A stretch of 37,942 nt of DNA from positions 1 through 37,942 of the forward strand of contig JAUVBY010000009.1 of NCBI GenBank assembly GCA_030590945.1, written 5' to 3'. The notes beneath the pieces were generated by a model. It saw only the letters and a list, made by a program, of their open reading frames with translations. It had not been told where the DNA came from and made no database searches. This DNA is from Gammaproteobacteria bacterium. Lineage in GTDB: Bacteria; Pseudomonadota; Gammaproteobacteria; Arenicellales; Poriferihabitantaceae. Position 1 is the stretch's first letter. The number at the start of each line of letters is the position of its first letter. Shown here piece by piece: positions 34,302 to 37,942 of the stretch. The position numbers and the translations under genes were made by a program.

Positions 34302-36590
34302 ATGCCCGAAGATTTTTCAGAAGACTCGCTCGCTTATCACCGTAAAAAGCCCTACGGAAAGCTTGAAATAGCCGCGACCAAACCTTTGCTCAACCAGCGT
34401 GACCTCTCGCTGGCCTATTCTCCCGGTGTCGCTGCTGCCTGCAACGCAATTGCAGCTGACCCGACCGAAGCCGCAACCTTAACCGCACGCGCCAATCTGG
34501 TGGGTGTGATCACGGATGGCACTGCGGTATTGGGCCTGGGTGATATTGGCCCGCTGGCCGCCAAACCGGTGATGGAAGGTAAAGCGGTATTATTCAAGAA
34601 ATTTGCCGGGGTAGATGTATTTGATATCGAGCTCGATCAGCAGGATCCGCAAAAGCTAATCGAAATAATTAAGGCACTGGAACCCACCTTCGGTGGAATT
34701 AATCTGGAAGATATTTCGGCGCCGGGCTGTTTTATTGTCGAAGATGCTCTGCGCGAGCAAATGAATATTCCGGTGTTTCATGATGATCAGCATGGCACTG
34801 CGATCATCGTTGCCGCTGCGGTTCGCAATGCATTGTTTTTTACCGGTAAAGACATTACTGAGGTCAAGCTTTGCGCTTCAGGTGCAGGCGCAGCATCTCT
34901 GGCATGCCTGAACCTGCTGGTCTCCATGGGCATGCGTCTTGAGAATATCACGATTCTGGATAGCGTCGGAGTAGTGTATAAGGGGCGTACTGAACGCATG
35001 GATGAATATAAAGAGAAATTCGCGTCAGAGACTGAAAACCGCACTCTGGGAGAAGCCATTGCCGGCACGGATATATTTCTTGGATTATCCATCGCAGGTA
35101 TCCTGAAACCGGAGATGCTGATTAGCATGGCAGAGAGCCCCATCATCATGGCCTTGTCAAACCCAACGCCGGAAATACTTCCAGAGTTAGCGTTAGAAGT
35201 ACGCCCGGATGCCATTTTAGCCACGGGCCGGTCCGATTATCCGAATCAGGTGAATAACGTATTGTGTTTTCCGTATTTATTTCGTGGCGCGCTGGATGTG
35301 GGGGCGACCACCATTAATGAGCGAATGAAAATCGCGGCGGTGGATGCCATTGCTAATCTGGCCAAGCGGCCGCCTACACAAGAGGTGGATATGGCTTACG
35401 GCGGAATCAGTGGCGCGTTTGGCCCACAGAACCTGATTCCAAAACCTTTTGACCCGCGTCTGATCCTTGAAATCGCTCCTGCGGTTGCAAAAGCGGCGAT
35501 GGATACGGGCGTAGCGACGCGCCCGATAGACGATTTTGAGCAGTATGTTTCCGAGCTCAACGATTTTGTATATCGTTCCAGTTCCTTGTTAAAGCCTGTA
35601 TTTGACCAGGCGCGAACCGACCCTAAAAGGGTCGTATTTGCAGAGGGCGAACGTCGCTCGACGCTACAGGCTGTGCAGCAAGTTGTGAATCACAAAATTG
35701 CCAAGCCCATTTTGTTAGGCAGGCCGGATATGATTCGCATGCAAATCAAGAAGATTGGCCTCAAAATCGATGTGGAAAACGATATCGAGATCATCTACCC
35801 CATGGATAACCCGCATTTTAAAGCCTGCTGGAACGAATTGCATCGTTCTTCGGGGCGAGAGGGTATGACGCCGGCAGAAGCTAAGCATGTTATTTCGGTG
35901 GATCCGACTATTCTGGGTTCGGTACTAGTACGCCTGGGTATCGCCGACGCTATGCTGACTGGAACGGTGGGCCCGTTCGCCAAACATTTGCATTCGGTTC
36001 GTAAAGTGGCCGGCTTTCAAAAAGGTGCGACCCAACTGGCATCGATGATGGTACTATTTTTGCCTACCGGTACGTTCTTTCTTTCAGATACCCACGTTGC
36101 GTCTTCACCCAATGTCGATGAGCTTACCGAGTTAACCTTAGAAGTTGCGAACGCGGTACGGCGCTTTGGTGTGACCCCCAAAATCGCGCTGCTATCCCGG
36201 TCTAACTTTGGGTCGCGGCCGGAGGCACAATCCTCTATGAAAATTAAGGAAGCGTTACAGAGAATTCGTGAACAGGCGCCCGAACTCGAGATCGACGGAG
36301 AAATGCACGCAGATGCGGCTTTATCGCAAAAAATTCGGGATTACAGTATGCCGGAAAGCCTGTTAAAAGGGCAGGCGAATACGCTAATCATGCCACGCGG
36401 TGATGCCGCGCATATCGCTTATAACTTGTTGAAAATGCTAGGAGGCGGTACGTCAGTTGGTCCCATTATGCTCGGTTGCGCTTACCCGATTCATGTGCTG
36501 ACAAACTCAGCTACTGTGCGCGGTATAGTCAATATGACCGCGATTGCTGTTGTTGACGCACAGACTCTCGCAAATATGCAACAGGGCTGA
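34302..36590 (+). CDS. maeB: NADP-type malic enzyme with C-terminal phosphotransacetylase-like domain
   Basis: The enzyme decarboxylates malate to pyruvate, supplying NADPH and linking the TCA cycle to pyruvate. The 762-residue size is that of the MaeB hybrid type. Residues 1 to about 425 are the malic enzyme part: [58 protein letters not shown] and the dinucleotide fold [14 protein letters not shown]. From about residue 430 comes a phosphate acetyl/butyryl-transferase-like domain ([38 protein letters not shown]). In relatives this domain regulates the enzyme, with acetyl-CoA inhibiting it, and is not itself catalytic. Confidence 0.95.
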
Positions 36591-36613
36591 AATAAGCGGG
36601 TACATAGCCACAA

Positions 36614-36642
36614 TTGAAAGCTCCAACGCTTTCAGGCATAAT
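36614..36642 (+). promoter_or_regulatory. Predicted sigma70 promoter of the riboswitch-metZ transcript
   Basis: TTGAAA (36614-36619) and CATAAT (36637-36642) are 17 bp apart, each 5 of 6 to consensus. Transcription would start near 36649, the first base of the riboswitch. The spacer overlaps a small hairpin (TGAAAGC/GCTTTCA) and an AGGCAT/ATGCCT dyad, which could also weakly end maeB transcription. Confidence 0.8.
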
Positions 36643-36648
36643 GCCTTT

Positions 36649-36699
36649 CCGCGCTGATTTGATTCAAGCTTGCGAGCGCGTAATAAGTCCGGCTAAAGA
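36649..36699 (+). ncRNA. SAM-II riboswitch
   Basis: The sequence matches the SAM-II aptamer motif in order. CGCGCT (36650-36655) forms P1 with the exactly complementary AGCGCG (36675-36680). The loop begins TGATTTGA and ends CTTGCG. P1 is followed by TAATAAGT and then the conserved GGCTAAAG (36690s), which closes the pseudoknot. Both the U-rich loop and the AAUAA/GCUAAA elements are in place. SAM-II riboswitches bind S-adenosylmethionine and repress methionine-synthesis genes; metZ follows. Family knowledge places most SAM-II copies in alphaproteobacteria, so a gammaproteobacterial copy is less usual. Confidence 0.92.
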
Positions 36700-36715
36700 T
36701 GTGTTCGATATTTCA

Positions 36716-36763
36716 AACCCGCTTCAGCCTATGTGATACAACCGGCTTGAGCGGGTTTTTTAT
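36716..36763 (+). terminator. Intrinsic terminator between SAM-II riboswitch and metZ
   Basis: AACCCGCTTCAGCC (36716-36729) pairs with GGCTTGAGCGGGTT (36744-36757), with a two-base mismatch, and is followed by a T-run (36756-36761). It lies about 17 bases after the aptamer and 12 bases before the metZ ATG. In this position it is probably the expression platform, not the end of maeB. Confidence 0.8.
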
Positions 36764-36774
36764 TGGAAAATGCT

Positions 36775-37942
36775 ATGACTGAACAATCGAAAAATAAACA
36801 TACCATTGCGGTGCGAGGTACCTCGCAGAAATCGGTGCACGGTGAGCACACCGAGGCAATGTATTTCACTTCAGGTTATGTGTTTGATAGCGCAGCGCAG
36901 GCGGCGGCGCGTTTTGCAGGTGATGAGCCGGGTGCTATATACGGGCGCCTGACTAACCCCACCGTGCAATCTTTTGAGTCGCACCTGGCGATGCTGGAAG
37001 ATGCCGAATACTGCGTTGCGACAGCCACGGGGATGGCCGCAATCAATTGTGTCTTTACCGGCTTGCTCAATGCAGGTGATCACGTAGTAGCATCTTCCAG
37101 TCTGTTTGGTTCTACCATCATTCTGCTGGATAAAATTTTCAGCCGCTTCGGCGTCGAAACCACGTTTGTGCCGATTCATGATACATCAGCCTGGCAAGCT
37201 GCGGTCAAAGGCAACACTAAACTTTTATTTCTGGAAACACCTTCTAACCCGCTATGCGAACTCGGTGATGTGCAGGCCATTGCAAAGATCGCACGAGCCG
37301 CGAGTGCCACGTTTGTGGTGGACAATACCTACAATACGCCGGTGTTGCAGAACCCGCTGGAGCAGGGTGCAGACGTAGTGGTTCACTCTGCCACGAAATA
37401 TATAGACGGCCAGGGACGACTGCTTGCGGGAGCGGTGGTGACCAATGATGAAGATATTAATGAGGCAGTTTTCTCCGTATTGCGGACGGCCGGTGCCAGC
37501 CTTAGCCCGATGAACGCCTGGTCTATGAATCAGGCATTGCAAACCTTGCCGCTGCGTATGAATGCGCATTGCGAGAATGCGATGCGCGTTGCCCGCTGGT
37601 TGGAGGCCCATTCTGCGGTTGAACGCGTGTATTATCCGGGGCTTGAATCGCATCCACAGCATCAACTCGCAACGACGCAGCAGCGTGGTTACGGAGGAAT
37701 GCTGTCTTTTGAAATTAAAGGTGACAAAGCCGTTGCCTGGCGCATCATGGACAGCTGCGAGATGATTTCCCTGTCAGTTAATTTAGGTGATGCGCGTACC
37801 ATCATTACCCATCCGGCGACCACTTCGCATGGGCGTTTGACACCCGAAGAGCGGGCGCGCGCCGGAGTGGCGGACAATCTGATTCGCCTTTCCGTCGGGC
37901 TTGAGGCGGTAGAGGATATAGTCGCAGATTTAACGCTGGGAC
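36775..37942 (+). CDS. metZ: O-succinylhomoserine sulfhydrylase MetZ (3' end cut by window edge)
   Basis: MetZ makes homocysteine directly from O-succinylhomoserine and sulfide, using pyridoxal phosphate. The gene starts at the ATG at 36775, with GGAAA 5-9 bases upstream. It is open for 389 codons to the window edge, so only the last few residues are missing. Cys/Met-metabolism PLP-enzyme features are clear: IYGRLTNPTVQSFE, ATATGMAAI, LETPSNPL, VVDNTYNTPV, and the Schiff-base Lys208 in HSATKYIDGQGR. The DNTYNTP/HSATKYIDGQGR form is typical of the MetZ branch rather than MetB or MetC, though substrate choice (acetyl or succinyl) is not proven. It is likely controlled by the SAM-II riboswitch. 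Confidence 0.93.
   Translation, partial: MTEQSKNKHTIAVRGTSQKSVHGEHTEAMYFTSGYVFDSAAQAAARFAGDEPGAIYGRLTNPTVQSFESHLAMLEDAEYCVATATGMAAINCVFTGLLNAGDHVVASSSLFGSTIILLDKIFSRFGVETTFVPIHDTSAWQAAVKGNTKLLFLETPSNPLCELGDVQAIAKIARAASATFVVDNTYNTPVLQNPLEQGADVVVHSATKYIDGQGRLLAGAVVTNDEDINEAVFSVLRTAGASLSPMNAWSMNQALQTLPLRMNAHCENAMRVARWLEAHSAVERVYYPGLESHPQHQLATTQQRGYGGMLSFEIKGDKAVAWRIMDSCEMISLSVNLGDARTIITHPATTSHGRLTPEERARAGVADNLIRLSVGLEAVEDIVADLTLG

Follow-up and report, generated by a model that had tools for sequence, protein, structure and literature searches.

A candidate SAM-II riboswitch upstream of metZ in a gammaproteobacterium and its relatives across the class

Introduction

The SAM-II riboswitch is regarded as alphaproteobacterial, and cases in gammaproteobacteria have been called sporadic and possibly transferred. 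A leader that resembles a SAM-II aptamer and lies before metZ in a contig of the Poriferihabitantaceae (JAUVBY010000009.1, 37,942 nt, analysed over its full length and called the window below) raises the question of whether such an element could control methionine synthesis in a gammaproteobacterium, by what means, and from where it came. The first-pass annotation of this DNA had proposed a SAM-II riboswitch next to metZ in a gammaproteobacterial host, and had offered either a wider distribution of the class or a transfer together with metZ to account for it.

In the earlier literature, Barrick and Breaker (2007; PMC2258182) reported SAM-II as sporadic among gammaproteobacteria and, in alpha- and betaproteobacteria, noted its association with terminators; Meyer et al. 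(PMC2704228) mention it from alpha-, beta- and gammaproteobacteria. Leyn et al. (2014; PMC4239095) found SAM_alpha in Rhizobiales and Rhodobacterales only. The first-pass annotation described SAM-II as known mainly from alphaproteobacteria; the riboswitch is best known there, and gammaproteobacterial cases had already been reported, as sporadic (PMC2258182).

Results

The element upstream of metZ is a complete SAM-II-type aptamer, with a 6-bp P1, a pseudoknot and all 13 pocket nucleotides (Table 1). By direct reading, six of six P1 pairs are formed (36650-36655 with 36675-36680) and the linker starts with AAUAA (36682-36686). The perfect P1 and the UGAUUU, AAUAA and GCUAAA segments named by the first-pass annotation were all recovered, the loop reading GAUUUGA. 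The SAM-II pocket is made up of U10-U12, U20, U21, G22, C23 and G42-A47 (PMC3764141), and at the positions listed there the window is identical in 13 of 13. Among 45 diverse homologues GCUAA is invariant, and the final A of GCUAAA is almost so.

The likeness to SAM-II (RF00521; 2QWY) extends over P1, the UUU of L1, UUGC, GCUAAA, the pseudoknot topology, the A-rich linker, the terminator and a methionine gene downstream. The differences lie in the sequence of P1 (CGUGG/CCACG there, CGCGCU/AGCGCG here, and GCGCC/GGCGC in the gamma consensus), in a P2b of about 2 bp in the window against about 5 in the alphaproteobacterial SAM-II consensus, in a conserved antiterminator partner of the CUUUAGC type, and in a score under the Rfam cut-off.

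Table 1. Positions in the window of the metZ leader, its parts and the adjoining genes
Feature	Positions	Strand	Basis
maeB, NADP-dependent malic enzyme / phosphotransacetylase	34302..36590	+	NF009501 1026.6 bits, under cut-off 1178
Sigma-70-type promoter: TTGAAA 36614-36619, 17-nt spacer, CATAAT 36637-36642	36614..36642	+	predicted
SAM-II-type aptamer	36649..36704	+	RF00521 29.2 bits; model R2 55.7 bits
P1 5' strand CGCGCU	36650..36655	+	direct reading; P1 covariation, 45 homologues
Loop L1 GAUUUGA	36656..36662	+	near-invariant among homologues
UUU within L1	36658-36660	+	U10-U12 of crystal structure 2QWY; pocket list of PMC3764141
P2b 5' strand CA	36665..36666	+	partner UG 36700-36701; two-base pseudoknot helix, covarying
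P2a 5' strand UUGC	36670..36673	+	U20-C23 of 2QWY; invariant in 45 aligned homologues; pocket nucleotides
P1 3' strand AGCGCG	36675..36680	+	direct reading; covariation
A-rich linker AAUAAGUCCG	36682..36691	+	direct reading; alignment
Proposed antiterminator strand GGCUAAAG	36691..36698	+	7/8 pairs with CUUCAGCC 36722-36729
P2a 3' strand GCUAAA	36692..36697	+	G42-A47 of 2QWY; pocket nucleotides
P2b 3' strand UG	36700..36701	+	covarying with 36665-36666
Terminator hairpin, arms 36716-36729 and 36744-36757	36716..36757	+	13/14 pairs; -21.6 kcal/mol
Terminator U-tract TTTTTT	36756..36761	+	direct reading
Likely ribosome-binding site GGAAA	36765..36769	+	5 nt 5' of ATG 36775; inference from sequence
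metZ, O-succinylhomoserine sulfhydrylase	36775..37941	+	TIGR01325 525.9 bits (cut-off 510); NF006003 586 bits (cut-off 522)

At Rfam gathering thresholds the whole window gave no match. In E-value mode, SAM_alpha (RF00521) was the best match of the region with 29.2 bits at 36641-36717, whereas its gathering cut-off, set by curators and without structural meaning, is 36 bits. In the comparison with the Rfam model, which the first-pass annotation had put forward as a check, the element falls under the cut-off, but in a search of the 2.78-Mb genome it is the best match (E 1.4e-4), the next one being at E 0.1. That second match (G000:C14, 18.6 bits) was discarded because control genomes, which are unrelated, also give matches up to E 0.1. 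Model R2, a covariance model trained on 39 sequences that all come from other families, with the window's family left out, scored the element at 55.7 bits (E 6e-14, a rough value, as the E-values of our own models come from a short calibration), and it also recovered canonical Rhizobiales SAM-II at 35.4 bits. The match of the window element is well beyond chance.

Other families fit the region poorly. SAM-V, which has a related SAM pocket and in which the outer P2 pairing is reportedly absent, had no Rfam match in the region up to E 10; in the window element, pocket and P1 are SAM-II-like, and P2b is short yet covarying. The SAM-II long loop family (RF01726) reached only 18.4 bits in the region (E 0.29; cut-off 44). 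Weak Rfam matches to the Trp leader, RybB, P9 and the Betaproteobacteria toxic sRNA were rejected as chance-level, resting on the terminator hairpin.

The structure is reflected in the alignment of the 45 homologues, where 95.7% of the pair cells hold standard pairs and six of the 11 pairs show double-sided changes. None of 500 shuffles reached the observed covariation values, and when the partner was shifted by 1-3 columns only 31-52% of the cells were paired. P1 and P2b covary, with compensatory changes in both P2b pairs, while P2a is invariant. At the first P2b pair most homologues have C-G, with A-U in the window's genus; the second pair occurs as U-A, C-G or A-U. These patterns support an H-type pseudoknot, in which the loop strand inside P1 pairs downstream of P1.

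The predicted promoter stops 7 nt short of the aptamer, and transcription is predicted to start at about 36649, on the first aptamer base. Promoters ending 5-9 nt before P1 are frequent among the homologues, with at least 10 of 12 matches in 48 of 128 leaders (0.1 expected from mononucleotide shuffles) and at least 9 of 12 in 99 of 128. Since the promoter recurs at this spacing, the aptamer should form the start of the transcript. At the other end of the leader, a hairpin followed by a U-run is found in 103 of 128 homologous leaders.

The aptamer and this terminator may be connected through the GCUAAA strand. In the window, the pairing of GGCUAAAG with CUUCAGCC contains one A-C mismatch, and in the sister genomes G001 and G002 it is complete (8/8); the shuffle p value for the window genome alone is 0.11. 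Across homologues, a near-perfect complement of GCUAAAG (CUUUAGC, CUUUGGC or CUUUAGU) occurs in 60 of 128 leaders, a median of 17 nt downstream; for equally long pieces from the rest of the aptamer, a downstream complement is present in 1-5 of 128. Of 63 cases, 53 have the complement within the terminator 5' arm, so that a single strand can take part in the SAM pocket or in the antiterminator. The stability of the terminator greatly exceeds that of the antiterminator state, so the choice between them would have to be made kinetically, while the RNA is being transcribed. In the minimum-free-energy fold of the leader, the P1 3' strand pairs with the stretch right after GCUAAAG, and both pseudoknot and antiterminator are absent; this fold was not counted as evidence because pseudoknots are outside the fold model. 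An upstream repeat, AGCGGGU (36596-36602), which is complementary to the terminator arm, was also considered for the antiterminator role. Yet it is located 5' of the predicted promoter, and it would thus be relevant only for read-through from maeB.

A functional element might also act chiefly on translation, or as a source of short leader RNA, instead of by termination. SAM-II switches of both kinds exist, and the leaders of Sinorhizobium meliloti also yield sRNAs (PMC9373788). We consider this improbable, as the Shine-Dalgarno sequence lies about 60 nt past the aptamer, with a strong terminator in between, and outside the pseudoknot strand. Control by termination is the reading retained below.

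The proximity of the aptamer to metZ, as first annotated, is supported, the gene being identified by both TIGR01325 and NF006003 with the aptamer upstream of it. The genes hflK, hflC, purA and the malic enzyme gene precede metZ in the window. The contig ends (window position 37942) inside metZ; its last 42 residues are found identically at G000:C147:20579-20704 of the same assembly, and contig C147 probably continues the window's contig.

In 134 loci, the gene directly downstream of the element was metZ in 103, metK in nine, metF in four and metN in one (117 in total). The other 17 are mostly unidentified genes, together with one contig end and one CysB-like regulator. NCBIfam models applied to example downstream genes placed MetK (621 bits) and MetF (327 bits) above their cut-offs and MetN (454-477 bits) slightly below. 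It is worth recording that SAM-II-type leaders before metK, which encodes SAM synthetase, are found in several families of the class (L053, L066, L072, L108, L120, L135, L147, L148, L152), that in two loci of the sister family of the same order (L201, L202) the element precedes an aspartokinase-like gene and not metZ, and that in L104 a SAM-II-type aptamer is placed about 280 nt before a CysB-like regulator gene.

These genes also bear on the ligand. It could be argued that the SAM-II fold was kept while the ligand changed, for example to S-adenosylhomocysteine or another SAM derivative, as P2b is shortened and ligand drift without loss of the fold is known from SAM-I variants sensing spermidine (PMC10853860). 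All pocket nucleotides are intact here, unlike in the spermidine variants, whose pocket changed, and the regulated genes serve the synthesis, use or import of methionine and SAM, which makes such a change unlikely. On these features the switch very probably senses S-adenosylmethionine.

The element is present in all three genomes of the window's genus and in 22 of the 24 genomes of the family, four of them above the Rfam cut-off, and its position upstream of metZ is kept in the relatives. In two genomes of the family metZ is kept and the element was not found. Because orthologous leaders in 4 of the 24 family genomes pass 36 bits, the cut-off splits one orthologous set. Rejection of the element on the gathering threshold alone was overturned by the relatives and by our own models, the threshold being too strict. 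The lack of a significant covariance-model score, which the first-pass annotation had named as grounds for dismissal, is found solely by way of the Rfam cut-off, which is too high for the gamma subtype.

In the class as a whole, RF00521 matched 135 of 369 genomes at E <=0.01, only 30 of them above the cut-off, and had no match at E <=0.01 in 14 control genomes. Model R1, a gamma model broader than R2, found the element in 184 of the 369 sampled class genomes and in 135 of 272 genera; the GTDB class Gammaproteobacteria takes in the former betaproteobacteria, so some of the 184 may belong to these. In the sister family, absent from its training set, R1 also matched all three of the genomes sampled, with 50-60 bits. 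The wider distribution offered as the first alternative is thus borne out, in the family and, by either model, in the class.

The gammaproteobacterial nature of the host is supported by the hflK-hflC-purA order in the window and by 16S rRNA. Since 16S rRNA is missing from the window's own genome, this assignment rests on a genome of the same family, whose closest relatives in the set searched were Methylomagnum (86.7%), Legionella (86%) and Enterobacterales.

The second alternative, transfer of the element with metZ from an alphaproteobacterium, fared differently. SAM-II is best known from alphaproteobacteria, and the window's genus stands apart from the other family members in the MetZ tree, so that metZ may once have been replaced. 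Nevertheless, half of the class has the element, mostly in a gamma-specific form, and the gamma model gives the window's aptamer a much higher score (55.7 bits) than the alphaproteobacterial one does (29.2 bits). The MetZ tree likewise speaks against joint transfer, for the Rhizobiales rows are away from the window's MetZ, on a branch of 2.49. We regard such a transfer as highly unlikely. The MetZ proteins of the window's genus (L001, L009, L010) form their own branch, apart from the other 18 MetZ rows of the family, although the aptamer in front of all these genes is of one kind. The separate branch could reflect displacement of the gene while an old leader stayed in place, or rapid evolution.

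Two elements described under other names may belong here as well. Leyn et al. (PMC4239095) present a "new" betaproteobacterial metXZ element with six conserved regions, pairings 1/4 and 2/6, and then a terminator. Like the window element, it is located before metX/metZ and has pairings that cross as in a pseudoknot, a terminator and a proposed second conformation; it is described there as new and without a ligand, and our comparison covers topology and context only. The other, Bp2_Cand287, was found before methionine genes in Burkholderiales and in gamma- and deltaproteobacterial genomes (Khoo et al.; PMC3521395). Its Rfam model (Bp2_287, RF02424) is filed as an sRNA and built on the strand opposite to the SAM-II element. 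In the class search it has 67 matches, of which 63 coincide with a SAM-II element on the opposite strand and none on the same strand. One of these coinciding matches is in the window, at 36761-36616 on the minus strand, antisense to metZ and the aptamer (22.5 bits; cut-off 70).

These names could be taken to indicate some other leader with terminator and antiterminator, bound for example by a protein or an sRNA, whose likeness to the aptamer is coincidental. Terminator and antiterminator are clear on their own, and similar betaproteobacterial leaders have been filed as the metXZ element (PMC4239095) and as an sRNA (PMC3521395). A covarying pseudoknot, an exact pocket match and a gamma model that recovers known alphaproteobacterial SAM-II render this explanation very improbable. 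The likeliest reading, for metXZ on the basis of topology and context, is that metXZ, Bp2_287 and SAM-II are one riboswitch family, partly filed under other names.

Several variant forms were observed among the homologues. An extra hairpin of variable sequence interrupts the linker, between P1 and GCUAAA, in L206-L211 (Aidingimonas halophila, Vreelandella and Halomonas species). These loci also have a longer P2b (mostly UACCC/GGGUG), then a terminator, before metN; the gamma model gives them only 22-28 bits. Tandem SAM-II-type aptamers occur in L055, L064, L090, L092, L096, L163 and L166, where the first aptamer has a terminator, the second has a CCCC...GGGG hairpin beside the Shine-Dalgarno sequence, and the downstream genes are mostly non-methionine genes (e.g. 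for a MoxR-like ATPase). Tandem SAM-II as such is already known (PMC9481103). A second subtype, GATTTAA..CAACTTGC..GCTAAAGCGT, is found in L173, L175, L203 and L212 and in the second aptamers of the tandem loci. It has an A-U and not a U-A pair in P2b, and it often lacks a terminator and precedes genes of unknown function.

Discussion

It is reasonable to think that the element in the window is a SAM-II riboswitch controlling metZ via transcription termination, to which we give a probability of about 0.9. The aptamer, the covarying pseudoknot, the terminator, the antiterminator complementarity, the gene context and the conservation are read from sequence, and they make SAM as the ligand, the switching, the termination and the transcript start likely. 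Transcription would begin at the aptamer. When SAM is low, the emerging GGCUAAAG strand would pair with CUUCAGCC, the inner part of the terminator 5' arm, and this antiterminator would hold the terminator open, allowing metZ to be transcribed. When SAM is high, it would be bound in the H-type pseudoknot formed by P1, the UUU of L1, and UUGC with GCUAAA. The GCUAAAG strand would thereby be occupied and the CUUCAGCC arm released, and the 13-bp terminator with its six U would stop transcription before metZ. The outcome would be end-product feedback on homocysteine and methionine synthesis.

The closest studied case is the SAM-II element before metZ of S. meliloti, where termination was predicted and high SAM raised the level of the riboswitch sRNA and lowered that of the read-through metZ mRNA (PMC9373788). 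It shares with the window element the regulated gene, the order of aptamer, terminator and metZ, and the proposed off-switch. Its host is an alphaproteobacterium and its function was studied in cells, whereas the analysis of the window element covers sequence.

What is newly found here is the breadth of occurrence in gammaproteobacteria, the conserved antiterminator, and the evidence that Bp2_287 is a SAM-II element modelled on the wrong strand. Taken together, and with the metXZ element compared by topology and context, the data probably reflect a large and mostly vertically kept gamma SAM-II subfamily, present in about half of the sampled genomes and governing metZ, metK, metF, metN and other sulfur genes. 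Its GCUAAAG would be both ligand-binding strand and antiterminator strand against a conserved CUUUAGC of the terminator, and betaproteobacterial metXZ and Bp2_287 would be the same riboswitch.

For the window alone, this would mean ordinary feedback control of methionine synthesis. If the class-wide result is true, much of gammaproteobacterial methionine control rests on an RNA missed by routine annotation, because a different subtype was used to fix the Rfam cut-off. The result would also account for metZ control in lineages without an annotated regulator, correct the strand assignment of a Burkholderia "sRNA", and provide many natural examples of a simple terminator-antiterminator switch.
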